DNA of 64,000 bases from Chondrosia reniformis (taxonomy: Eukaryota; Porifera; Demospongiae; Chondrillida; Chondrillidae): NCBI GenBank assembly GCA_947172415.1, contig OX359197.1, positions 4,402,001-4,466,000 on the forward strand, read 5' to 3'. This document shows positions 265 to 64,000 of this stretch, in pieces (position 1 is the first letter of the stretch; every line of letters starts with the position of its first letter). The notes below the pieces were generated by a model that was not told the origin of the DNA, searched no databases, and worked only from the letters and a program-made list of their open reading frames with translations. The translations under genes and the position numbers were made by a program.

Positions 265-3200
265 CTACTGCTGTTATGTCTGTTGTAACTACAATGAGCG
301 TAAAATCAATAGCTGATGATCCGCTACATTGAATAGTAATATTTACACATCCAATGTTCTCTTCCACATTCTTTGGCTCTTCATTATCAACAATCCTACA
401 AATTACACTGTCATCATCAGAAATGGTGACAGTTGCCCAATCAGGAACGCCTTTCCTGACACCCAAGCTTGCTGAGTCTCCTGGTATAACAATATGACCT
501 GTAAATTCCTCCTCACATTCACTAAGAGAGTCGTCTATAACATTGAAGTCCACACCAATCAGGTTTTGTCCAGGTTCAAATAATATTCTCTTTTTGCCTC
601 CTCCATAGTCAGAACCATCTACAAGGAGATATGGATGAAATAATCAAAGTGGAGGATGAGCAGAACATGACATTTTTAAAAGGAATTGAAAATTAAGAGG
701 GCAATAATATATACGTACACGTATAGGTGCACATCTTAGCAATACAAGCATCTAAAAGGTTGTAACCATAATGATGAAATAGTCTGGAGTGACACACACT
801 TTTAGATATTCCTATGTAGTGGCCAAAAGGAAGTCACCAATAAGTGTGCGTGCACCATGTACTTATATAGGTGCATACCAAGTGCCGTTCCTTGATTAGT
901 TTCCACTTCAACATAAAATGGAACTGAAAAGTCTCCATCAACTACCACATCTAAAGTGACAACTTTATCATTTTCTCTTGTAGGATATTTATCTCTTTCA
1001 AAATGAACAATTACACTGTCATCATCAACAATACAAACCACAGTTTGACTGCCTGCTCTGGATGTGACTCCAAGTGCTGCAGATTCATTTGGAACACTCA
1101 GGAAAACTCTAAAGTCTTCAGTGCCTGTATTTTAAAAACATTAGAAGAACTGCAGCTGACCTAATCGCAGAGTAAACATTTTCAAAATCAATTACCACAT
1201 AGATTTCAAGCAGATAATCTAACTAGTAAAAACAATATTTTGCAATGTTTACCTACTCTAGTTAGCATTCTTATGTACCTGTTAAAACAATCACCGTAGC
1301 AACACATTGTTGTTTCTACTAACAAAATTATTATTAATTAGCTACCCAATTGCTACTGCATATTTAAAGGTCACTTAGATTATATATATATTAGATTAAA
1401 CATGATCTTACTAATACAATTTTTAGAGGAACTATTATCTTCTAATATACGTATATAGATCAGTCAATCCTAATGTTTTGTGCTAGAAATGTGGTTTAGA
1501 ATTATCATTATGTTGTAAACACAATCACAGTCAACTGAGTGTTTTACCTTCCATTATATTATCAGAAATAATGGGTATACTCAAAGTTGCCTTCCTTTGG
1601 CCTGCTGATAATGTTACAGATGCAGTTGTAGCTGAATAATCTCCTGGATCTAAAGAAAATACAATTACTTACATACATACATGTAGGTATCTTAAATGCT
1701 AAGAGCACAGCAATGAACTAATTGAATAAAGCAAGCAGAGTAAACAGTTTTCAGAAAGACAGAAGCAATCACACCTATAGAAGTACCAGGGTATGGACTG
1801 CATATATACTAACATACATATAAAATGGTAATGGATACTTGTTGCATTCATTAGCTACTTGGATACAGAGAAAGATTATTTATACAGTAATCATTGCTGA
1901 TAAAGATCCATGGGGAAAATGTTTAATTTCTGAATCCAAGTACTGTTGGTGGTGGCACTCAAAGAAAATCAATTTCTAACATGCACGTGTATGCATTGTC
2001 TGTAGTATCACATTGTTAATTGATTACAGGAATCCTCATTGTGTTCCACGAGCCTTAATTAATACCTCAGTAATAATCAAATAATAAAGTAATATTATCT
2101 GTTAACTCATGCAAATAAAGCTGATATTTCTGGACAAAGGTAAAACTACTTTGGTCACAGGTAGCATCTGTGGTTAAATATCAATGTTACCACTTAAACT
2201 CTGTGTATGGCGATATATGTATTGTATATACAGATATACTGTATATGCAATATACGTATATATATATGTGTTAATAAGGGCTACAAATTGGACCTTCCTA
2301 GTTTATATAACGCTAGAGGATCCGGAATTACGTACAAAGAAAAATATAAATCTAATCCAGAGATATGTACGTACTTGTAGCAGTGTTATCTCCATAGGTT
2401 ATATCAACTTGATAATCTTCTGCTGCAGTTCCACTGGCTGTGATCATTAAGATGGCAGATCCTATGCTTTCATTGAAAAGGTATTTCAGTTTACTAAATT
2501 GAATCACAATTCCATCATCATCTATAATCATAACTGTGGCAGTGTCTGCAGTTCCTATTCCAACTTGTAAGCCACTAGATTCTGTCTGGGAATTAACACC
2601 TGCTATGGCTTCGAAGAATTCATTTCCTTCAGCTAAGGTATCATCTTGTATAGGAATATCAAAAGAGGCTGTTCTTTCTCCAGGAGTGAATTGTACAGTT
2701 ATTTCTCCTCCACCATAATCAACACCAGCTACACATGTATTATAAAGATATAGCAATGGGCTCCCTTATGCATATACATAGTCTGGCAGTTCTAGATGAC
2801 AAACAGTAATGCCTTTTTTAATTGCTGATTATATAGAAATTGACCTACTGACCAGAGGCTGAGATATCTGCTGTATTAACTGCTACACTGAAGGGCTTGG
2901 AGAAGTCTTTGTCTGCTACCAAATTTAGGGTCACAAATCCAGCAGTTTCATTCACCTCATATTCATCAGGATTAAATTGTACCAATACTTGGTCGTCATC
3001 CTGAATGATGACAGATAGGTCTGCCTCTCGGATAGCAGCTCCAGGACAACTATCGGTGATTTTCAAGGACAGGGAGAATGCCTCCTCTGGTTCCGCTACT
3101 TCATCATTGATTAGGGTACAAGTTAACCTCTTTGTCGTCTCCCGAGGTGCAAAGGTGACTACTTGGTCACATGATTCAAAATCTGCACCAACTACAAAGT

Positions 3201-6200
3201 GTTTAGATAACCTCTCAAAGCCAATTTTAATGGATATACATATACTGCATACAAGAAAAATATTTAGTAAATTACTACTGATTACTATTCAAATCACTGA
3301 TTCCACAAGCTCCACCTAACTTCATATCCTGTATGAACCCCGGACCAACATATGACTAGCAATTCAGTGCTATATTAAAAATACAGCACCAACCTGTAGC
3401 TGTGTCATCACTTGAGGTTACCATGACAACAACTGGATACTGTGACATGCCACTCATCTCTACAGAAAACATGATACTTCCATTTTCTGAAACGGTCAGT
3501 GGGTTACTAGTGTCAGCATAAGATATAGATATTGCATCACTAGAATCATCAGTTATGCTGATTTGTGAGGTAGATTTTGAACTGTTAACTGAGATTTGTC
3601 CATCCTGATAGCTGTTTTCAGATGGTATTATGATCATTGCTTGGAAATGTTCCAGACATTCCATTAATGCATCATTTACAATACTTGAAGAGGTAGACAC
3701 CCTTGAGCTGCCAGCAGGAAATGTCACAGACATACCTTCTGCACTATAGTCGTCTGGTGCTATGGGTTAATGAAGTTGAGAAATAGCGATTTAATAATAC
3801 ATCCCCAATAATGTCTTTTCTAAATCAGTAAATGAGGCAAGAGGATACTAAAGGCTTATAAAAAGCTCTATGTACAACCGATGTATGTTTCACAGGGACT
3901 TAAGAGCTGATTGTATTTTGCAGCTGACTGATTGTTTACACAGGTTTTACAGTACTACTGTATTAATCTGGCACAATTTATATATAACACAATAAATTGA
4001 GAAGCTAAAAATGCATACAATAAGATTATTAGGATTTTAATACAGCAACTTAACTCAATGAATATGTCTTCAAAAATTAGTCTGAGGGTACTTACCAGTA
4101 GCGCTAATATCCTGAAATTGCACTTGAACAGTGAAGTCACACTGTGCTGTGATATCTGATGTGATAACTAGTTTAGCAGTACCGTCTGACTCAAGGTGTG
4201 AATAAAAATTTGACTCGAATCCAACTTTAAGCTCTAAGAAAAACAATTTAAGAGTACATACTTATACACTCATGTACAGTTGTTCCAATAGAAGAAATAG
4301 AGTATATAGTAATAATTGTATTTCTTGTAAACAATTAAACTACAAAATTGCTTGGTACTGTATTGTACATGTCATGACCATAGATTTATCTTCCATAGGA
4401 TGATATAAAGATCTTTCCATCGGCATATGTATAGCTAATGTAATATCCCATTGTCCTTAACAAGAGGAATTTATATAATTAACAGTGTCCTGTTCACTAA
4501 TATAGGTGCTAATTAATTAATTAATTACTTCCTGGAGTGTATACATTTATGTACACATGTATACAGCATATGCTAAAACTTTTTCAATGCACATGTATCT
4601 TTATGAAACCTTTGGTTTTGGCAGCTATATATATATTTTAGATCGCTGATGAAGACCCTCGGGATCAAAACATCCAACAGAAAGATTTAAACCAAAAACT
4701 TTTAGACACTCTAAGAGTCAGGAGATGCATCATCCATAAGATAAGTCTACACAGTTAGAAGAAAATTAATCCTTAAGTTATTTTATTATTGGAGCTATAT
4801 AGTTGCTCATGACTAATCAAAGTGATAATCAAACCACAAGTAATTATAATTACCTATCACAAAGAAACAGTGAAAGAGGGGAAAATAAGATAGAAGCAAT
4901 TAATTGAAACCAGGACAGCTGGTTATGACCACCAGTGCTCTGCCACTGAGCTATAATTGCCATGGCAATGCTCTCCTTGTGTTTTCCCCTCTTGTTATTG
5001 AAAAAATATCTTATAATAGGCAGTGAAATAAACTGTGTTTATGGCCAAGTGAAGCAAAATAACATAGAGAGAACTTGTTACAGTCCCTTAATTTACTCTA
5101 AACTCTAGGTTTACATTCTCAGCTAATGTAATAATGATAGGACACAGGTGTTGGATAGTAGTGTTTTTAATTACTTGTACATACCATCATCATCAAGAAT
5201 GTTGACTGTCCCAGTAAGGGGTCCTTCAGGGTTCTCCAGAACAACTAGTGGGTCAGATGGAATAGTAAAAGCTACCTTGAAACACTCTTTCCTTTCCAAG
5301 ATGCTGTTATCCAATATGGGAATGTTTGTACAGGCTGTTGAGCTGCCTTTTACAAATATGACAGAATAATCACCATTCCCGTAATCTGAACCAGCTGTAA
5401 ACACCAAATTACTTATAATGAGCTGTAACGTTAACATACATACAACTTCATGTGTAACCAGGATTGTGTGCATATATATATATATATGTATATCAATATT
5501 TGGCATCTAAGTGGAGAACATGACCACATACGTATATATATTCCTATATGAACAAAGTAATCTCATTAGAACACTATATAGTAGAAAATACCAAATATAA
5601 TCTGTTAGTTGTATAACATACTCCAGTAATATGTTGCGCTTGCACTTGTCTGAACGTATGTGCATGAAAAACCTAAAACACCATTTTCCTATATGCTATA
5701 TATATATGTGTATTCTGTAAAAAGCCTACAGGAAACTAATGCATACATGAATACCGTGTAAGCAGAACATTCATCCATTTAAACAGTCTTTCTAAGAATT
5801 CTTAAGTTACATCTCGCATTTATATTAATGGATCACTTAAAAAGGCACATACTGTAATTAGGAGTATAACTTTTCATTCTACCATCATCAAGCAACCGCT
5901 AAGTACATATATAGTCACTGTTAATCGATTGAAATGGAACTTAAGATAGAATTATTCATTAATAATTTACTTTTTGTACATATATAGAGGCAAACGATCA
6001 TGTTTAATAAATTGCTGGTGCATCTACAAGGCACATAATTAAACTTTTTCCTTTTTTATTTAAATTAGGCAATCAAGTTACAAATAAACTGCAATATATT
6101 TTGTATGAAATCACAGCATGGTGCCATATATACCTGTAGCGGCTCCATTGCCCAAACATGGATCTCCTTCACAAGATGAGAGTGTCAAAGGTATAGTAAA

Positions 6201-9200
6201 CTCTTTTGGGAATGGTTCATTGCTCATTAGACATATCTCAACACTTCCATCATCTTCACGAACAACAGTTTCATTAGACTTCAGCATGACAAATATCACT
6301 GTAAAAAGAATTAGAATGTAAATATCCATTATGGATGTCACTTTCCAATGGGCTGGTTGACAGATGGTGTATAGGGTGTGTGCGGACAGATGCATGGGTT
6401 GCTTCACAGAAGGTTGGACAACAGGAGCACAGATTGGTATTTATGAGTGAGTAAACTCATTTGAAATCCATTACTTAAATTACTACTTATTTAGAAGAAT
6501 CTTAATGGTTTAACAGACACTATGTAACCCTCCATGATGTCATACATAAAAGGCACTGCCAGGGCAGTAAATCATAAGCATCTTCTTATACTTTCCTTTT
6601 TTGGAATTTGAGGGAAAACAGGGTCAAAGTAGTTGTGAAGATTTTCTCACAACTTTTTATCACTTAACAACTAAAAATGCTGACTCAGTCAAAATATTCA
6701 AAGAATTAGAAGTATGACTAATAACTGGCAAATCTTAAGGAATAAAATAGTTACAACAGTTATATACTGTACAATATGGCTTCTAGTGCTTCATGTGGAG
6801 GGAGATTATTTACTACACTCACACTCGGCATAAAGCACTGCACCTGTGCTATAACTTTAATTAAAATTTTCCCACTCCTAATTAATAATAGTATGTAGAG
6901 GTTATGTTAATAAAGGGATTAACCATCTATAATTACAATCTATTATGATAGAGGATTAAACACATTAAGGAGAGGTCTCTATATAGCAATCAAATTAAGT
7001 TCATCAACTTAGGAATTACACCACATTTTAGGCTAAGAGTGTGACCTTGATCCTATATATGTACAAAGAATCACTTATCCCATAAGATGAAATACACTCA
7101 ATATCCAGACAGGCATACATTACTTAGGACTCTAACAGATAGACATAACTGTATCTACATACTGCACACATACTTACGTATGTATGTTTCACTACATGGT
7201 ATCATAAATAGAGAAAATATGGATTGAATTGTTTTCTTATTTTAATTGGAAAGGCCACTAACCAAGATATCTATCTAGGTATACATATGCATGCAGCACA
7301 TCTTTAGTAATAAACTAAAGTGTATACTGTAGTCTAGAGAACTATACTTAGTAATGTTAGATTTAATGAGTGATGTAATATACAGTAAGAAACCTTAAGC
7401 TTGCCTAATAAAGCCACATGGAGGAGGCATTTTATTCAGCTATTTTAGATAGGTAATTATCAGGATTTAAATAGAAAAAATTATGAATTATAATTTTTGG
7501 GACTAATTTGATGATGATTATTAGTTCAAGCAATTGCAAGAGATGTCCTAGAAGCATAATATGATTTATATATACAGGTTGGACTGTACATACATACATA
7601 CATATGTATATGTACGTATATAAACATATTTCAACCAAATCGTACTGCATTCATCTTTAAGAGCAATCTTAGCAATGTCTTCACAAGCAAATTGGTCATC
7701 CTCAGGCACAAGTGTTGCATTAAAACTCTTGGCATCCACTCCACACACGCCATCATCAATCAGCACAACTTCACATACAGCTTCCTTACGACCTTCAGTA
7801 AAGCAGCAGTCTGCATTGTACTCTACATAGTCTGTTCCAGCTAAAGATATATGTAGGTGCAAATTCAGGCAAGTCACACAATCAAAAAGATACTTTTAAT
7901 AAAAACTTGACATATTTAAGTACACAAGTGCATGTTTGTATATGTTCCTACCAATGGCTGTGTCATCAGAGGTCTTCATAGTGATACATGCATCATTTTT
8001 GGTTGGCCCAGTACGGGAGATCACCACTTTGGCAATTCCCCCTCTCACATCAGCCATGAAGTCTAACCCACTGAAACAATAGCTTACAACTAAACAGAAG
8101 ATACAAAATATAAGAAACATTTAGCATAAACCTGACTGTATTTACAATATTCATGGAAAATACACTACTGTATATATGGTAATGTTTGGAAACAAAATTT
8201 TCATGAATTTTCATGTTTATTTCTCAAAAAAACATTCCAGGCTCAACATTTCCCATCTTTACATATATTATATACAGAGGTTAAGATATGGGCACGAGGT
8301 AAGTGCATTTTATATACTGTAACACCCGAGTGCCCATGTCCTGAAGAGACGATTTGCAGCCCTGGTTAAAAAGGAAGTCAATCAGTATTCTCAGTAAGAG
8401 TGCCTGGATGTTTATACAATATAAAGTGGGTGTAAAAATCCACCTTTACCTATGGCAATGGGTGCTATACATGTATAAGGACTCATTCACAAATATAAAA
8501 CACAAAATCTTTTTTCTTCAGCCAACAATTCACAAAATCTTAAGACTCATGGAAGTTAGTACACATACGTACATTATAATGGCAATATTAATTAGTTTGA
8601 AGAAGAATGTATATACGTATACCTAGGTATGTATTCAGTAGAGGTTATGCAATATATGACAACATATATAGACTATTTAGACTACATAGTTTAGATAGCT
8701 GTGGTCTATGCTGGCAGTGATAGCCTTACAGTTGCATGATTAGAATCAATATGTATATGCATATCTGCATATCGGATACAAATATACCTGTCACTTAGAA
8801 TTTCAATAGCATGTAAACTATTGATGGGAGTTTTACACATTGCAGAGGAGGAGTAAATAATCACCAATTAATGGAATTCATAAAGGAATGTTTGAAATCC
8901 AAAAAATTATATACATTGGCATCTATAACGTACATATAGGTATATGGTCAATTTAACATACACACCACCTGCAACATTCAATATATACCTTCCAAAACTC
9001 ACTTGAAAGTGGATTTAAAGCCAAGCCACCAAGATAACCATAAGTGTTTTCTCTTTCAAATCCATACACTATCACACCTATCTGAGCCTTTTTATTAGTG
9101 TGGTACAAACGGTGAGGTCCAAGGGGTATTGAATCAGGTACTTTGTATTGAACAGCATATCCTTTAATATCTCCATTGATATCTTTAACTGGAGATGTCC

Positions 9201-46884: not shown

Positions 46885-49800
46885 TCACTGTTGAATAGTC
46901 ACATTCTTATGTTCGTCTGAATGCTTCTTCATATAGTGTTGTAGATAGGAACAAGTGAGGATGACATTAATGTTCTCTTTGCCGGCATGGTCCAATGCAG
47001 CCTGTAAAAGAAGAAGAACAGATTGAAACCTCAGAGGGAGAACCCTTTAAGAAGGACAACTTGCTAGCGAGGAAATGTTCTCTAAAAAGGATACCTCTCT
47101 GTGGACACACCTCTCCGTGGACACACCTCTCCGTGGACACACCTCTCCGTGGACACACCTCTCCGTGGACACACCTCTCTGTGGACACACCTCTCCGTGG
47201 ACACACCTCTCCGTGGACACACCTCTCCGTGGACACACCTCTCCGTGGACACACCTCTCTGTGGACACACCTCTCCGTGGACAAAATACAAATGTGTGTA
47301 GGTGTTTGTAAAACACAGTAGAACACTACACGGCTGCTTCCTGAACATTCCTGGTTTAAAAGCATGATTCTACATTTCCTCATATGCTTAACAATGTAAG
47401 GAAATATTATGCTTGTACGTACATAGTAGCAAGAACTACATCATGCTTGTTTTTAGGAAGTGATACTTCCTTTGATTTATACAATAACTTCTTTATGTTA
47501 AAAAACTTTCATATCTATACATTCTTTACCATTTAAATCATTAAATAGTGTCGATGAAACATTAAAATAAAAAATAAAAAAGATAAGCAATTCCAAGATA
47601 CAAGGCACAACAGAAAAACATTTTTAGAGCTAAAGAGACTAATAAATAATGTCTCTTAGTTACAACATATGTATTCCTATATTGTCTTACTGACCGGGTC
47701 TAACATGGTGCGAGGCATGACATAATGCGACAACTTGTCTGTGTCAAGGTTAGTAATACCCTATAGCAATAGATGCATTCTCTTCAATGAACCCTTACCC
47801 TTACAATATATCTGTATCATTACACTCCCACTACTACAAACTGCACTGTGTGTACATCGGAGGGCAGTACAGTAAGATCTGCTGCCAAGTACTCAATCTT
47901 GTTACTTCCGATATTATGATCAAATATCCCAGCTTTGGACCTTACACCTGCAACTTCAGTTACAAATATTTAAAATACTTGAAGTTCAATGATATGGCTA
48001 CATTAAAGGCATTATCTTGGTCTTCGCATTAGTTAGGCCTTGGGGAAGACAGACAGATCACCTAACTAGCTTCCTTCCCTAACTGACATCACTTTACAAC
48101 CTTTATGATCACATCCTTCACACAGATGGGGTCAAATAACACTGATGATATGTACCAACCTGAAGCTATATGCATAACCATCTGAAAGAGATAACCACAT
48201 TAAAGTGATGACAGACATCTTATCTTATGTAGCAGAATCACTGCAGTCGTACACAGTGAAGTGTGCCATATGTGGTACACCACCTCAGATGTATACACAT
48301 ACAGTAGGAACAGCTACATCATATATACGTATATATATAGAGAGAGAATTATACAATACTAGAAGTTTACTGTACGTACTTTCTTTTTTTTCTGTTCCTT
48401 GTACATGTATGTAATGCTGAATGCTAACCTTATTCTTATTTCTACTTTAGCTCATTGTGAATTAATACTTAGGAAGTACGTAAATAAGGTCCAGTGGAGA
48501 ATAAGAACATTCTTGTATCTCCATCTAAAGCTCTATAGGTTTGCCTGTAGTCTGTTCTCTTAATGCTTCCTTAGCTTCATATGTATATAGGCATGAATGT
48601 TTGGATAATGATTCATACATACACATATGTAAACCAACCAGATGATATCCTAGAAACATTCCTCTGGGCCAATGGAGAAAAAAGGAAAAAAAATCATATA
48701 TTCTCATCAAAAGCTTATGTATTTGTGATAGAAAATGATGACTCGTGATTTTGTGTCAATGTCCACTTAGAATATGCTGGAAGTTTAGACAGTGGATTGT
48801 GCTCTTTCTACTAGTTAACTAGTTATTAGGAGTTACAAAAGACCAAGAAGACGACAAAGACTCTCAGGGTCACTGATGAAGGGTGGAGTTTCCAGAAACA
48901 GCTGTCTGACAATATGGTGAAGAAGAAGAAGACGGAGAAGACTCTTGTATACGTACTCATCCAAAGCTCTCACCAGTTTTAGTTACCTATATGCCCTTTA
49001 TTCTGTAGCATGCTGTTTTAGATTATTCATAAATAAATTATATTGGTCCCAAAGTTATAGACTGGTCCAAATATGATCATAGAACACACAGTTCAAGCAG
49101 TGCAGTACTGACTGGCACTAACACTGGTAAACCTTTTAATAATCCTCACATAAGTACAGACTTAAAGGAATAGCCAGTGAGTGAAAGTGTTCTTTTACTT
49201 GCAGACATTACCACAGTACTCTGTTTTAGCCAATAGGGATAGCCTTGGGCAAAGTCTGTTGCTGGGCAACACTTACTTTGAACATCATACATATGGCTGC
49301 TATACGTAAATTAAAATTCAAAACTTTGCAAATATTCACTATATGAATATGGATATTCACATGTCTCCTGGCAACAAAGTCTGCACATATATAACAGCTT
49401 TATGGGTAGCCTATAGTCAAATGGTCACCAGCATATAATAAATTATGTACAAAATGAATATATGTACAGATTAGATTTAAATATGTATAAGCAAAAGAGT
49501 TAGATCTCAATATATTCATCAATAAAGTGTCAGATAAATGAAGCTTTAATTTATTCCAAGCTATCTGGTTTGACAACCAGATAGCAACAAAAATGTAAGT
49601 TTATAATTTCAAAGATGATCCTTGGTGAGATAATTTGGACTCCTGTAGATAACACATAAACAACTAGAGCAACAACCCTCTTCTCCAATAATCCTGAAAG
49701 TGGCAACACACAACACTATGTCACCATCTTGTAAAACAGCTCATCTGTGTGTTGGTCACGTTATCGCATATGTACCTTACTCTGCACATCCAAATGATAT

Positions 49801-56295: not shown

Positions 56296-59200
56296 TTACT
56301 TCACTTTATCAAACACAATAGGTTTTGATGGTTGTATAATAACGCCATTCACAAACACTGGTGATGTCAAATCTGTAATACAGAAACAAACATGAGTTTT
56401 GTAAATATTTTCAGTTATTTCTACTTTTTAATATTTATTTATTTAGTTAGTTCCAGTATAGAGTTCTAGCACATGGTCCATTGAACTACGCAACGTACTG
56501 ACATGCAAATATACAGTATCAAGTACACTGGACTACCTACACTGTTATGTGTACATAAAGCAAAACTGCCCAGACTGCCTAAACTATTACAATTGTGAAT
56601 ACTATGTACGTATTTCACACCATTTAGACTGACATTTTTGATTACTATACTGTAGTTCCTAGAGTGTTCCACTAGTTTGAATTTTCAAATTTGTGGCCCA
56701 ATAAACTACAATCATAACAAAATAAACTATTTTGGAAAGCTTTTGAAAGCTATTGTAATATTCTGAAATACATTTTTAACTTATTTTCTATCCTTTCATA
56801 CTTCAGTTAAACTTCATTTTGTACAATCAACCACAAAAGTGAGAATTGCCAACTTACGTACCAACAGAAGCTCCATCTATAGCCAGTATATCTTCAATCC
56901 TTCCCTGGTGAAGCAATCTTAGTATTATCTGTGAGGTTCTAGTGATCTCATCCTGGTCTTCTGGAGTGTACATTGACTGTATTCCTGCCTGATCATTCTA
57001 TATACATGCAGTAAGCACATACATATAAATACCACTAATCTATATCCAACCACACTGCAAAGTCTCAAATTGTATTTGGTATACTTCCAAAGTAGTTGGT
57101 ACACACCTCACAGTGTACTGACACACTACCTACACACCTCTCAGTGTACTGGCACACTACCTACACACCTCACAGTGTACTGGCACACTACCTACACACC
57201 TCACAGTGTACTGGCACACTACCTACACACCTCTCAGTGTACTGGCACACTACCTACACACCTCACAGTGTACTGGCACACTACCTACACACCTCACAGT
57301 GTACTGACACACTACCTACACACCTCTCAGTGTACTGGCACACTACCTACACACCTCACAGTGTACTGGCACACTACCTACACACCTCACAGTGTACTGG
57401 CACACTACCTACACACCTCACAGTGTACTGGCACACTACCTACACACCTCACAGTGTACTGGCACACTACCTACACACCTCACAGTGTACTGGCACACTA
57501 CCTACACACCTCACAGTGTACTGGCACACTACCTACACACCTCACAGTGTACTGGCACACTACCTACACACCTCACAGTGTACTGGCACACTACCTACAC
57601 ACCTCACAGTGTACTGGCACACTACCTACACACCTCACAGTGTACTGGCACACTACCTACACACCTCACAGTGTACTGGCACACTACCTACACACCTCAC
57701 AGTGTACTGGCACACTACCTACACACCTCACAGTGTACTGGCACACTACCTACACACCTCACAGTGTACTGGCACACTACCTACACACCTCACAGTGTAC
57801 TGGCACACTACCTACACACCTCACAGTGTACTGGCACACTACCTACACACCTCACAGTGTACTGACACACTACCTACACACCTCACAGTGTACTGACACA
57901 CTACCTACACACCTCACAGTGATCCGGAATACTCAGAGCACCCGGCAGGAACAGTCCAGCTGATAGTAACTGTAGTATACGTCTATAAGAAGAAAAATAA
58001 GCAATTATGAGACATGTTGTAAAGCAGGTAGGCTAGTCCATATTTGTTAAGCACATGTGTCTATTTGGCATTTGCTGTATGCCTCTATGTAAATCTATTC
58101 AAGGAGAGTTGACAGAATACTTTAGCCCTTATCAAGAATAGTTGTAAACATCATATTGTAATACAAGATGGTCAATGGTGGCATTTGATTTTGTGGTCCT
58201 GTCTAAGTAGAACCTCGCCCCCAAACTATGGACTTTAAGAGCCAAGAGACTAAAGGCTTGAAATAAAATAAAGGATATTATTACACTGTGCGATTCTCAA
58301 GCAATAATGAATCAGGAAATAATGAACAATAACAGCATCAATACCAGTATAGAACATTTCGACCAGAAGGTCTTCATCAGCTGTAAACACTGAAATGGGT
58401 GGAAGTGCGAACTGTTAAATAGTGATTGGTGAGAAAAAATTAACAGGAAATGAATAACTAAATAGATGAATACTCGGACACTGTTGAGCAGGGGGTTCCA
58501 AATATTAGATAGATTTAGGCCACAGTCCAGGTTCATACTTTGAGTAGTACTGTAAATCTGAATGGCTTCTGTTGCCATTCCCTTCCAATAGTCTGGGACC
58601 ACCTCCTGCACTCTTGTATTGTCCCAATCAATCCTGTGGTTGAACCTCTGGACATGCACTGCAATCCCATTCTTGTCATCACCCCTCTTCATGGCTTGTC
58701 AATGTGATGTGTGGTTGCAGTCTTTGCATGGAATCTTGTACATCACCTCTTTCCTCCTCACCTCAGGAACTTTTACCCTGACTATCCTCAGGCTATCAGT
58801 AGTTATGCCAGTTACTATTAGGCTATCATGCCTACTGGGGCCGGAAAACAATTTAAATACAAACATTTTACAACAACATGTCGGAGCTTCTTTGTGCGAG
58901 GTATGGATGAATTAAGCTCTTTCAGTGATTCAATTTTGTCCCGCTGGTTTAAAAAAAAGGTCCATTTAACAGCCGATAATTTCCGTATAATTTTGATTAC
59001 TACTAGTAATCTTTTTAAAAAAATGGCCGGCCACCACTTGGCATTTAGTACAGAAGAGGTATTACACCTATTTGAACCAAACGAATTAGCGAGCAAACAG
59101 CAAGATACTTTAGAAGAAACATTTACAAGCTATGTTGGAGTCGATATATCTGAACCTGAAGCTGACAGCAATCGAGCAAATACGGTAACTAGGATGGTCC

Positions 59201-62200
59201 TAACCTATATGTACATATGTACAATATACATATCCATGGTGATTTGTTAAGTCAAGTGGAAGAAGGGCTCTGGCGAAAATGTCTTAAAAACCGACGAGCT
59301 CACTTAATGTTATGTCCACAACGGCCACAGGTTTATCCATTATGCCTGTATGTACTCGTGAGGAAGTGTCGAGCGGAAGCAGAGAAGTCGGTCGGAAGAG
59401 TACACCGGCTAGAGATGTTATAAACTGTACCTGCTGGAAGAAGAGAGAGTCGGCGGCAAAGAACAAGAGGGATTGGGTCCAGTGTGACCTTTGTAGGTGT
59501 TGGTCCCATCCTTCTTGCTACAGAATAGCGCAGAGCGTTGTAGCTAAAGAGGAGGTGCCTTTCTACTGCTTCTTTTGCCAAATGAAATGGATGTCGAAGC
59601 AAACCAAGGAGAATTGCATACACTGTGAGCGACTCAAAGGGAGTAGAGAAGGAATACAAGTTACTGGAAGAGAAAAACGAAGATATGAAGGCAGAGATGG
59701 CTCGGTTGGAGGGAATTATGGTCGAAAAAGAGGACAGAATAAGACATTGATTGGGAATTAGCGGAACAAAAGAAGAATATCGACGAGGTCACACCAGCAA
59801 AAGACAGGGAAGTTAACCAACTTCAGGAAGGTCTGAGAGAGCAGAAGAAGGCTGTGGAAGAGCAAAAGAAAGTGGTTGAAGAACTGAAGGCGATTATTGA
59901 GAAAGAGAAACCACCTCAACTCTGGACGGAAGTAGTTAAGAAAAGCAGATCTAGCAGTAAGAGGACGAAAATGGAAGCCACAAGATAGAGCAGAAAAAGG
60001 AAAATGAAGATAAAGATAAGGGAAGAGGAAGTGGAAAGAAAGCTGAATACAGAGGCCGCTCAGAAGACCACCAGAGGATACCAAAGAAGGAGTGAGGAAA
60101 CTTTGGAGAACACACAGAGCCCAACATGTAGGCCAGGTTAAATCAAATTGCTAGATTTCATATGTAATGTAAAGATAAATTATTAAGAACAAGTCAAGAT
60201 TTATATTACATGTACGTAACTTTTACTTATAGTTATTCATATAGACATATGTTTCGGTGTATTATTTTGTTGATAAAATCGGAGACCTGTCCATTTTTAG
60301 GAATTTTAAGTGCTGGGATGGAAAGAGATAACCTTGCTGGGGCTCATAAGGAAACTAAAGGAACTTATCAAGCTATGATGACAGATCTCCTACAAACTGG
60401 GTTATTCCCTTCTCTGACAACAGTTGAAATCGGAAGCTTAGGTCACCATAACCCTGACACCATCCATCGGTTGAAGAAATTCGCTCACAGCTCTACCACA
60501 ACAGACAGGAGGAATACATGAGGAGTTTAGATTCCTCTATGTCAGCACTCGGTTGTTTGGGGTGTTGATATATGTTAAACATCTTGTTAACGTGTATAAA
60601 TCATCAGCGTTCAATTTTCGATACCATTTCGTACATATTACACTCGAAGTACTATCGAAATTGCATAGAAGTTCGCTCCCTTCATCATGCAATTAAGTAA
60701 GAACTTCGTGCAAACAACGGTCAAACACTGTTCCCAATTAGATCGAAGTACGACCACATTTCCCACATAATGTAAATGTTTTTTTTGTACATACTGTACA
60801 TTTGTTCGCCGTTAACTTTTATATAATTTGTACTGTACAAATTCCATTCCTGAGGAATATGGGTACTACATCTTAGAAAGGAAGTGCATGTACCAAGTTG
60901 AGTGCCCCTTTCTGCAAAAAGAGTTACTATTCCTTTACCTGTTGATAATGAAACATATATCGCTGAGGCAAAGACATTTTTTCAGGAGACATTTAAGTTT
61001 TCTAAGGCGTTCAAGTATGCATGTGATCCTTCGAAGAATAAGATCACTGTATCAGAAGTGACTGCTGCTCAGTTTAAAATGTCTGACATTGGACAGGAAA
61101 AACAAGAAAGAATATGAAAACAGTTTGAGCGAATTTGTGAAGAAGCTAAATTAGACTATCAGTAGTTATACCTACTGGGGCCGGAAAATCTTCACTATAC
61201 AAGCTACTGATAAGATTAGTCACTGATGTAAGGAAGAAATGCCAAATATCAGTGAAAGATGCACTGTGGATGATGGATGACACAAGTTAACATTAATCGT
61301 CCCAAGGGAATAGTAACATCACATGAGCTGGACTACTATGTTTTATAATGGCAACAGTAGGAGAGGCAGACAGTATGTCCAGTTGATTAGCACTCTCAAA
61401 AATGTGAGCAGGCTACAGATGTTATTTGCATCCTTGGTACCCTGTCCTCAACAGAGAGAGTGGCATTTTCATCTGTATGGACTGCCATGAAGCTGTTGCT
61501 TGTGATGCGTGCCACCAATGCCTCATCAAAAGACTCTTTCTCTGCTCTAAGAAGAATCAAGACATACCTACGTACGTACAAGAATGACTCTACAACACCT
61601 CAACAACCCCATGCTACTGCATGTACACAAGGAGGAAACTGACACATTTGACTTGTTTGTGATTGGCAGTTGCATAAGTAGTTTGAAGGTCATGGTCCTA
61701 CTGCACTCCATTTGCCAGCTTATAACTGGACAATGCATGAGGGTATAGTAACAGAAGCCTCACTTAAAAAGACCTGGCTCCGGCCCTGAACACCATATTC
61801 GCTTGGTCAGACGCCGCTCTCGAATTGTCACCGCACCTCTGGATGTGCTGAACTAAATAGTCGCCGCTCTCGAATACTAGACTTGGCTCATGACTCGATG
61901 GCAATATCAAAACAAGCAGAGAGCATACATTGGTTACAGTTTAAGTATCGTAGAAAGCATAGTATAATGGATTAGCAGTCTTCTAGAACAAAAGGATTGT
62001 TCCCCTCCAACTCATCTTCGTCCTCTTCAACATCTGCGAAGGAGTCTGATTCCTCGAGCTTGGTATCTGAGTTTAATAAATGCTCTCAAATAGAAGCCAC
62101 ACAATATTGTATGATGAAATAAATAGTAGCCGCGGCGCAGCATCTGATCGAGCAAATGATCCTAATCTATGTGTAGGTATACATGTCCCACTTGAGAAGT

Positions 62201-63505
62201 TGGCATAATGGGTTAGTATACAACATACATATGTATGTACATACATTAAGTTAGTGATACATAAAGACTTAGGATTTCCCAAGTGTCTAAGGACTCTCTA
62301 AAGACTCCTGGTATATTTGTAGGCAACACTGGACGTCACTCACCTGAAAGCAACTGGTAGTGTAAATGGAGCTCCATTGTCAAGTGGAATAACAGCACAG
62401 TGACACTACACAGAGAATAGGATATACTACCAAATAGAGTTCATGATCCGGACTGTAGGAGGCATTGTATGTTAAATTGTACAATGTAAATGCAGTATAC
62501 ATGTTATCAGATGGTTGCAATATACAAGATCCATGGGATGAGCAACTCTGAGAATTCCTATGCTCAGATTCAGGGAATGTGCAATGATATTATAGTATTG
62601 TGCAATGTAGCACACCCTCCTTTTGGCCCCTCTATTTTGACAGTGATTTGCAAAATTTTGCAACGTATGGTATATAAAACTGCTTACTACAGACCCAACT
62701 TCAGTTGCCAACCACACATGGAAATAATAAATCTAATGTAAAATACTAAATGTTGTTGTCAGCATGAAGAAAAACTTACAACCAGTTCTAAGTGCCAAAC
62801 ATTCAACTTTGAGAGACCGCTGAATCTTCTTCTCAAGTCTTTCATTACACGAATTAAGTTGGGGACAACACTATAATAAAAAAGGCATAGGAGTGACATG
62901 TACGTATATACTTGAGTTTACTCCCCATGTACGTATGGTTCAAATTATCGAAGAGTAAACATTGGTTGGCCATTGCATGGCTTCAAAAATGGGTACTGAA
63001 TGGTTAGGGAACTACAGTAGATGGTTTAACGCGGCTGTTTTTGTGATTGGAATTTTAAATGAATGGCAGACTTACTTATGCAGAGAGCTTCACACTTAAA
63101 CAGAATAAGGCATTTCAACAACTCAAATCGAATGATTAAACTATAAACTTAACAATCATGCAGCAATATTGACTTACCAATTTGTTGGACTTATTAATTA
63201 CAGACATTTACTAAGCGCCAACATTTTTGTCACAATCCAAACAATTAACAAATTTGAGAAACTCATTCACCTTCAAAAAATAGCCAGGAGTATGGGAAAG
63301 GCCGTGCGATGGCCAAACAACGTTTACTGTATGTACGTATGTACATCACATCACTTCTATGCACGGTGTGATGGACCTGCTGAAGTAGTCTTGTTCTACA
63401 AAAACATACACAGGAATTGGACTTACTCCTTCAAATCCCTACAGTTGTGTTGGAACCAGCCAGCATGTCTCACAGCAGCCACACTCTCTTCCAGAGGTTT
63501 TAGGT
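56296..63505 (-). CDS. ILF2: Interleukin enhancer-binding factor 2 (NF45), C-terminal part
   Basis: Six exons join in frame: 63427-63505, 62780-62870, 62344-62405, 57913-57982, 56862-56997 and 56296-56372, about 171 residues; the 5' exons lie past the right edge. The protein is the second half of a DZF domain: SVAAVRHAGWFQHN, NLIRVMKDLRRRFSGL, HLELVCHCAV, FRRILQLLSAGLFLPGALSI, PDHCE, MYTPEDQDEITRTSQIILRL and VNGVIIQPS. These follow the ILF2 order (IRHARWFEEN, LLKDLRIRF, LLGHYAV, LAAGLFLPGSVGITDPCES). It lacks dsRNA-binding domains after DZF, which separates ILF2 from ILF3. ILF2 heterodimerises with ILF3 in the nucleus and acts in RNA metabolism. The TAA at 56296 gives a short tail (FDKVK) without the acidic extension of vertebrate ILF2. 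Intron 57983-62343 is full of transposon debris and intron 56998-57912 is a minisatellite. Confidence 0.9.
57096..57925. repeat. Minisatellite, 31-bp unit, about 26 copies, in ILF2 intron
   Basis: Unit cctcacagtgtactggcaca followed by ctacctacaca; only a few positions vary (tctcagt, actgaca). It fills nearly all of the ILF2 intron between exons 57913-57982 and 56862-56997. On the gene strand each unit reads CACTGTGAG|gtgtgtagg, identical to the last nine exonic bases and the 5' splice site of the upstream exon, so the array appears to have grown from that exon-intron junction. Long open frames on the plus strand (up to ~297 codons) are by-products of the repeat. Confidence 0.92.
58312..58790 (-). 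mobile_element. Penelope-like retroelement remnant (GIY-YIG C-terminus)
   Basis: Minus-strand translation gives VMYKIPCKDCNHT, then, after a stop and a lost segment, KRGDDKNGIAVHVQRFNHRI and DWDNTRVQEV, ending LNLSNIWNPLL. This is the conserved C-terminal GIY-YIG endonuclease region of Penelope-like elements (YKIPCxxC, AVHxxxxxHxIDW, and a terminal LxxxW). The YIG core and following helix are deleted, so the copy is dead. A hammerhead-like motif follows at 58350-58400, near the element's 3' side. It lies in the large ILF2 intron, in the same orientation as ILF2. Confidence 0.75.
58350..58400 (-). ncRNA. Hammerhead-like motif at end of Penelope-like remnant
   Basis: Minus strand: an imperfect stem I (CAGT, loop, ACAG), an exact CTGATGA core, stem II (AGACC, loop TTCT, GGTC) and an exact GAAA box. 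The stem III strands do not pair well in this copy. Core boxes and stem II are fully conserved, which is better than the 15.65-kb copy, whereas stems I and III are poorer. Confidence 0.45.
58828..59250 (+). pseudogene. Unidentified ORF in ILF2 intron
   Basis: A 140-codon open frame (MPTGAGKQFKYKHF...DELSSFSDSILSRWFKKKVH ...HHLAFSTEEVLHLFEPNELA). The first residues resemble a helicase Walker A box, but the similarity stops there. Amino-acid composition looks protein-like. It is flanked by transposon fragments and lies antisense in an intron, so it is probably part of a mobile element. Function unknown. Confidence 0.3.
59312..60125 (+). mobile_element. Decayed ORF1-type protein: PHD finger plus coiled coil
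   Basis: An open frame from 59312 encodes a PHD finger: INCTC, then RDWVQCDLCRCWSHPSCY, then PFYCFFCQ, with the Cys4-His-Cys3 spacing intact. After ~59640 the sense frame shifts and continues as heptad-rich coiled coil (LLEEKNEDMKAEMARLEGIM; then GLREQKKAVEEQKKVVEELK and QLWTEVVKKS). At least one frameshift and stop codons break it. PHD plus coiled coil is the make-up of ORF1 proteins of some non-LTR retrotransposons (CR1/L2 group). No intact reverse transcriptase follows in the window. Confidence 0.6.
60300..60521 (+). pseudogene. Unidentified short ORF, probably retroelement debris
   Basis: Frame with MTDLLQTGLFPSLTTVEIGS then LGHHNPDTIHRLKKF. The TTVEIGSLGH segment is loosely like the C-terminal end of some reverse transcriptases, but this is not diagnostic. 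It follows the PHD/coiled-coil remnant in the same orientation. Confidence 0.25.
60902..61117 (+). pseudogene. Unidentified 71-codon ORF
   Basis: Reads VDNETYIAEAKTFFQETFKF, SKAFKYACDPSKNKITVSEV and ends at a TGA; charged and protein-like in composition, no family recognised. It lies between two copies of a shared flank (cctactggggccggaaaa at 58831 and 61171), so it is probably part of transposon DNA. Confidence 0.25.
61425..61680 (+). mobile_element. hAT transposase C-terminal remnant
   Basis: Plus-strand frame: AFSSVWTAMKLLLVMRATNA, SSKDSFSALRRIKTYLRT, then, after a frameshift, LNNPMLLHVHKEETDTFDLF. This is the hAT C-terminal dimerisation region (typical pattern LLxxPATNAxSERSFSxLRRIKTYLR followed by RLNxLxLLHVHK). 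The frame is broken and the catalytic core is absent. A possible right terminal repeat (cctggctccggccctga) lies at 61770-61790. Confidence 0.7.
61700..62343. other. Remainder of large ILF2 intron
   Basis: Includes the possible hAT right end and a short GC-rich stretch with the duplicated phrase gccgctctcgaat at ~61813 and ~61863. No exon is recognised before the ILF2 exon at 62344. Confidence 0.4.
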
Positions 63506-64000
63506 CTACATACAAACAAACATGCATACAGTACATATCTTGTAAGATACAATAATGCTACGTACAGTATATGAATATATTTTCAGTGGCTAAATACGTA
63601 CGGACATTAGTAATGAAATGTTAAATATTAGTAATTAGTAAAGAAGGTTGAAGCATACATATATACTTATATACATGGTTTCCCTTTCAAGTGAAAATGT
63701 ACGTACATAAAATTGAAAACGTACACCAATTTAATAACACAACTCTGTGTTATCTGGCTTAAAGTTTGTTTTCTTTTCTATCTAAATACACATACAGCAT
63801 GCAAGCAGAACCATTCAATAACATTGATCTGACTTTTTAAATAAGTTTTTACTCCTTAACCAGTAGCAATGGTGTGTACACCTGGTATCTACGTATATAT
63901 ATAATTACTTTAATTCTGCATTAAACCCATAACATAACCAGTAAGTTCAGATTCTTCAGATAAATGGATACAACATACTGAAACAGTAACATTGTAGAAC
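63506..64000. other. ILF2 intron at right edge
   Basis: The ILF2 exon ending at 63505 begins in phase 1, so an upstream exon must lie further right. I see no DZF-coding sequence in the last 495 bases of the window, only AT-rich DNA with several TACGTA palindromes. Confidence 0.5.

Follow-up and report, generated by a model that had tools for sequence, protein, structure and literature searches.

A minisatellite spanning the ILF2 5' splice site in the sponge Chondrosia reniformis, and boundary-spanning arrays in other genes of the same genome

A 31-bp minisatellite crosses an exon-intron boundary of ILF2 (NF45) in the sponge Chondrosia reniformis and repeats the 5' splice site of that gene, which results in 27 donors, the real one and 26 further copies. 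The array lies in a stretch of 64,000 nucleotides (GenBank assembly GCA_947172415.1, contig OX359197.1, positions 4,402,001 to 4,466,000; hereafter the window, the numbering of which is used for ILF2), and arrays over splice sites recur in other genes of this sponge. Judged by its sequence, the ILF2 array belongs to a class that is already known, though seldom described: the "mirages" of amphioxus. We consider it probable that it arose by local tandem duplication and expanded to 27 donors, the outermost of which makes the ILF2 mRNA while the rest are removed with the intron.

The ILF2 array and its gene

The array occupies positions 57100 to 57921 on the minus strand, a length of 822 bp, and was reported by Tandem Repeats Finder with a period of 31, 26.5 copies, and 98% matches. 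Every unit holds CACTG(T/A)GAG^GTGTGTA (the caret marks the splice junction), and the commonest minus-strand unit reads CACTGTGAG^GTGTGTAGGTAGTGTGCCAGTA. A copy-by-copy listing of the minus strand placed the donors at exact 31-base steps. The real 5' splice site, from -9 to +9 (CACTGTGAG^GTGTGTAGG; 57904 to 57921, minus strand), is the outermost array copy, with its junction set by an ungapped alignment to NF45. An earlier note on this DNA had claimed that a minisatellite copied the ILF2 donor about 26 times, and that the last nine exonic bases and the donor form part of the 31-bp unit; both statements held. Its further claim, that the copies are identical to the real donor, stood for positions -3 to +6 (27/27) but not for the 18 bases from -9 to +9, over which 23 of 27 donors agreed. 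Three of the inner copies have A in place of T at -4; the last copy differs at +8/+9, passing into unique sequence beyond GTGTGTA. Variant copies sit at the array edges, while the inner copies are nearly uniform. Two features of a mirage were found: the unit takes in nine exonic bases, with the array overlapping the exon at 57913 to 57982, and the units bear splice signals, shared by every donor over -3 to +6.

The 18-base donor sequence has no further occurrence within the window on either strand. A search of the sponge's own genome with the ILF2 array, which skips simple repeats and very common words, returned three matches: one was the array, and the remaining two, with 66% and 69% identity, are arrays of other units (20-bp and 15-bp). 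No dispersed or introner-like copies of the ILF2 unit were found at high identity at other loci in this search. A plus-strand gene was also considered for a frame of 328 amino acids that runs through the array, and was rejected because the 31-base unit is stop-free, which explains the frame. Elsewhere in the window, a 16-bp array at 47093 to 47283, read on the minus strand, likewise has GAGGTGTGT in its units (11 copies), and no exon was recognized at its edge.

The exon bearing the real donor (A^CGT.. RILQLLSAGLFLPGALSIPDHCE; 57913 to 57982, minus strand) shares its final nine bases with the repeat unit. It is followed by the array-bearing intron of 915 nt (56998 to 57912), the final 102 nt of which, before the acceptor, are non-repeat, and by the next exon (NDQAGIQSMYTPEDQDEITRTSQIILRLLHQGRIEDILAIDGASV; 56862 to 56997); both exons were placed by sequence and homology. 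The preceding exon (CHCAVIPLDNGAPFTLPVAF plus a split R codon; 62344 to 62405) gave a weak tblastn match (E 20) in the expected place, has splice signals, and fits in phase the exon that starts at 57982. Further minus-strand exons, with approximate bounds, were located by tblastn at 62780 to 62872 (VVPNLIRVMKDLRRRFSGLSKLNVWHLELV, which also matched DZF_C positions 5-33 below the cut-off) and 63444 to 63515 (LYVDLKPLEESVAAVRHAGWFQHN); the query was a human ILF2 sequence, against which the exons fall in order.

DHCE ends the donor exon and NDQAG begins the next, and the joined protein aligned without gaps to NF45 chains (9gtz_A, 6.2e-11; 4at7_A, 3.1e-10) and matched Pfam DZF_C (1.7e-11). The best PDB matches were ILF2 chains, with ILF3 far weaker (9.5e-4). 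By homology the gene is thus identified as ILF2, in agreement with the earlier note. In the sponge's own genome, a DZF_C search gave two matches, both inside this ILF2 gene and one above the cut-off, and a DZF_N search gave one sub-threshold match, at 64902 to 65006, just beyond the window end; these searches score the best candidates only, which leaves room for a second DZF gene. The nine exonic bases of the unit encode H-C-E, and because the C and E agree with NF45, the exonic part of the unit very probably derives from the ILF2 exon. Within the large ILF2 intron (62343 to 57983), the opposite (plus) strand has an open reading frame at 59288 to 59761 that matches a PHD finger (Pfam 1.8e-05).

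Boundary arrays in other genes of this sponge

We took a systematic sample of 19 ten-kb stretches (L008 to L026), evenly spaced and with positions fixed beforehand, and counted arrays with a period of 9-100, at least 3 copies, and a score of at least 100. Thirty-nine such arrays covered 13,475 of the 190,000 bases (7.1%). Two of the 39 covered a splice site, with homology to either side of it, in BUD13 and an RSK-like kinase, and because both fall in the same ten-kb stretch (L008) any genome-wide rate is very rough. The BUD13 array (L008, 3915-4086) sits at a donor and has a 24-bp unit with two exonic bases in common; the joined exons match Pfam Bud13 positions 1-98. The kinase array (L008, 8454-8816) instead repeats an acceptor: its 80-bp unit carries the 3' splice site and T-run five times in 80-base steps, and in four copies the first 16 exonic bases agree with the real exon at 14, 14, 14, and 13 positions. 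The joined exons match Pkinase_C across the junction, with S6 kinase beta-1 as the best PDB match; "RSK" is our own reading of the kinase. A third array (L013, 6089-6324) is a probable donor array of a gene to which we assigned no identity (no Pfam match; DCTN5, at E 0.1, was not accepted).

Other cases came from three GGTAAGT words in tandem, which gave 197 matches; the listed places correspond, by our count, to 17 distinct arrays, for each of which one stretch was fetched, with the donor-side flank included for most. Three of the 17 (L044, L047, and L050) start at a donor and have homology to either side of it, in TMA7-like, integrin beta, and PDI-like genes. The TMA7-like gene (L050; chr8 4526400-4527900) is readable from start to stop and, once joined, matches Pfam TMA7 positions 1-59 of 62; its third intron holds an array of a 33-bp unit (L050, 402-1030) in which the GGTAAGT donors number 19 and each unit includes ten exonic bases; an inner copy would read GGT AAG TGA, a stop. 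The integrin beta array has a 34-bp unit and seven GGTAAGT words. The exon shares five bases with the first copy and nine with the second, and the joined exons run through the junction without a gap when aligned to integrin beta-1. At the PDI-like gene, a 39-bp unit gives the real donor and four GGTAAGT copies with zero exonic bases in common, and the joined exons match Thioredoxin_6 positions 50-151. Exon-like frames without a Pfam match flank the L048 array on both sides. By eye only, no exon ending at the array was seen in 10 of the 17 (L042, L043, L045, L049, and L053-L058); L046 and L052 count neither way, and the stretch fetched for L051 lay within the array. This set yields no rate because it was chosen for donor words. 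At L041, the one locus examined of 15 from a GGTGAGT search, no exon ends at the array.

Within the systematic sample, arrays in L012, L018, L020, L021, and L022 are, by eye, near but not over splice sites. Pfam supports some of the adjacent genes (Arf-like, P450, and PRK); the remaining gene names there are presumptive. The L022 array (6212-8018; 27-bp unit, 66 copies) takes up most of the interval between two minus-strand, Arf-family-like exons (ARL6-like by eye) and ends close to a 3' splice site. Two L018 arrays (5443-5516 and 8860-8977), 3.4 kb apart and in opposite orientation, share a nearly identical unit of about 20 bp (CCCCTGACACACCCCCTTA) and adjoin exons resembling lanosterol synthase (by eye) and cytochrome P450 (Pfam match in the next exon). 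L015 contains a 169-bp satellite (1557-6776; about 31 copies, 91% matches). Among the GGTAAGT arrays, L057 and L058 (chr7, about 515,000 and 578,000) have the same units and the same preceding flank of about 420 bases, suggesting that they are segmental duplicates separated by about 63 kb.

Genome-wide counts of tandem donor words against reversed words showed no excess for GGTAAGT (197 versus 266) and no clear excess for GGTGAGT (1158 versus 1060); in the latter comparison, test word and control have letters in common, and matches in one array overlap one another. Of 49 array units, 13 contained a donor-like 9-mer scoring at least 5, where shuffles averaged 4.8 (0 of 300 shuffles reached 13); at a score of at least 6, the count was 3 of 49, against 2.6 in shuffles. 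Preferred seeding of arrays at donors is therefore not supported, either at stricter score thresholds or in the genome-wide word counts, and the 9-mer enrichment at moderate scores is consequently best read as base composition. We recognized two to three boundary arrays in 190 kb, versus about 25 predicted from array cover and gene density; the observed number is a minimum, since homology and inspection by eye were the means of finding exons. Boundary arrays look like the tolerated share of a high minisatellite load and not a targeted product.

Choice among the ILF2 donors and competing explanations

Homology to NF45 places the real ILF2 junction at the outermost array copy. Use of an inner donor, or decoy, reads GTG TGT AGG TAG, that is, VCR followed by a stop as the fourth codon, and would truncate the protein; this bears out the earlier note's claim that a downstream copy would bring in an in-frame TAG. 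Inserts of 1, 2, 3, and 26 units were translated, and the same VCR-stop follows for other lengths because the first unit inserted is always the same. Splicing from the last decoy would leave an intron of 109 nt.

A local tandem duplication across the ILF2 exon-intron junction, followed by expansion, probably produced the 27 donor copies. Normal ILF2 mRNA would then be spliced from the outermost (intron-distal) donor, the sole copy that gives the ILF2 reading frame, and the other 26, lying inside the intron, would be excised with it. The donors are alike, and the RNA structure modelled around them gives the real one no advantage, so context probably decides: the neighbouring exon and its enhancers, and which sites are transcribed first. 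Occasional decoy use would bring in the VCR-stop, and the resulting truncated transcript would probably be unstable; an array crossing the boundary may be tolerated provided that the outermost site is preserved. The recurrence of arrays in this sponge would follow from its dense minisatellites and many introns.

Two other mechanisms of choice were set aside: RNA structure that hides the decoys, which modelled accessibility did not support, and recursive (AG^GT ratchet) splicing, by eye, the unit being without a pyrimidine tract. The motif UAGGUAG in the ILF2 unit resembles an hnRNP A1 site and is a putative one. Modelled U1 pairing of the real donor is modest (-7.9, versus -14.0 for a consensus site), and another GT in the unit scored -8.6.

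Several points weigh against splicing from the outermost donor of a locally derived array. The local origin is read from one genome, and the splicing outcome at ILF2 from DNA sequence. The predicted unpaired probability is 0.031 for the real donor and 0.003 to 0.072 for the decoys, 21 of 26 of which are higher. Finally, SRSF1 is described, as a general statement, to favour intron-proximal donors and hnRNP A1 intron-distal ones (PMC5585400); the SRSF1 preference would allow an inner copy to be used, and the residual intron at the last decoy would be 109 nt.

The array might instead act as a length-dependent sink, in which decoys capture a real share of splicing and truncate ILF2, so that a longer array lowers output. 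The identity of the decoys over -3 to +6, the in-frame stop after any decoy use, and the modest U1 pairing of the real donor all speak for this explanation, which we nonetheless regard as unlikely. Amphioxus mirages reportedly leave splicing undisturbed (PMC3087553 and PMC3902484). An in-frame stop in the first unit was found in all six of the 5' arrays checked, but multiplying the shuffle probabilities gives 0.03, one of the six (L048) belongs to a gene without assigned identity, and in-frame stops are not rare in shuffled units. At the RSK-like acceptor, moreover, the 80-nt insert has no stop in the stretch read, the others of the four inserts stopping at codon 61 or 66. We build nothing on the stop pattern.

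The remaining explanations appear even less probable. Recent intron gain by tandem duplication of an exon segment containing AGGT has in its favour that the unit holds AG^GT and exonic bases, and that this model has been applied to amphioxus mirages (PMC3087553) and to other genes (PMC4974935); however, neither the acceptor nor the preceding stretch of 102 nt is repeat sequence, so the acceptor does not come from a duplicated segment, and such a gain at ILF2 is very improbable. Slightly less credible still is an array that provides alternative donors for protein variants. The human interferon-induced gene 6-16 (IFI6) reportedly has the same layout, with a minisatellite at an exon's donor (cited as Turri et al. 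1995); at ILF2, however, inner donors stop after three codons, so no longer protein variant would be made, although a stable truncated isoform is conceivable. We give least credence to an assembly artefact in which the assembler gained or lost copies. In principle, tandem arrays invite such errors, and the evidence used here is the assembled sequence; against it, the array contains ordered variant copies, and the genome report describes HiFi reads at about 70x with a quality value of 69.8, amounting to 10.31 Gb in 0.80 million reads (PMC12181767). By our own arithmetic from these figures, the mean read is about 12.9 kb, far longer than the 822-bp array, which makes a collapse or other assembly error unlikely.

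Relation to known systems and significance

Turri, Cuin, and Porter reportedly showed in 1995 that the 6-16 (IFI6) minisatellite provides multiple donors to the transcript; ILF2 differs in that every inner donor gives a stop. The closest likeness is to the amphioxus mirages, which are described as boundary-spanning, length-variable minisatellites at 5' and 3' boundaries, present in Adh3, the globins BflGb6 and BflGb9, and troponin C, with imperfect ones in PGBD5 (PMC3087553; PMC3902484); RT-PCR there suggests that regular splicing is undisturbed. Both they and the ILF2 array are tandem repeats across an exon-intron boundary whose units carry splice signals, and an amphioxus cluster (PMC3087553) likewise has uniform inner copies and variants at the edges. 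The ILF2 unit of 31 bp is smaller than the 150-160 bp of the amphioxus globins and within the 10-72 bp range of amphioxus Adh3. The host, a sponge, and the genes differ, and whereas length variation and splicing outcome are known for amphioxus, the ILF2 array is known here from the DNA of one primary assembly. In the potato RdRp gene, a tandem duplication across an intron-exon boundary creates a new intron (PMC4974935), unlike ILF2, where the acceptor is not repeat-derived. No sponge example of boundary-spanning minisatellites was found in the literature searched. What is new is the recurrence in this sponge, at splice sites of TMA7, integrin beta, BUD13, PDI-like, and RSK-like (3' site) genes.

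A more far-reaching proposal, that boundary arrays occur genome-wide in hundreds of genes and that in some, including ILF2, array length tunes expression through decaying truncated RNA, seems to us improbable; tuning of ILF2 output by array length is not supported so far, and the precedent in amphioxus is contrary. Spliceosome choice among identical sites has mostly been studied with two-site minigenes. The sponge arrays offer a natural test of splice-site choice, with 27 near-identical donors at ILF2, 19 at TMA7, and five near-identical acceptors at the RSK-like gene. RNA-seq from the same specimen is public (ERR10177766; PMC12181767) and could show which copy is used and how often. These arrays are of value because they recur, because so many identical sites stand together, and because public RNA-seq could cheaply decide the copy used. 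They extend to a sponge a mirage class that the literature searched describes for amphioxus, and they show raw material for intron growth.
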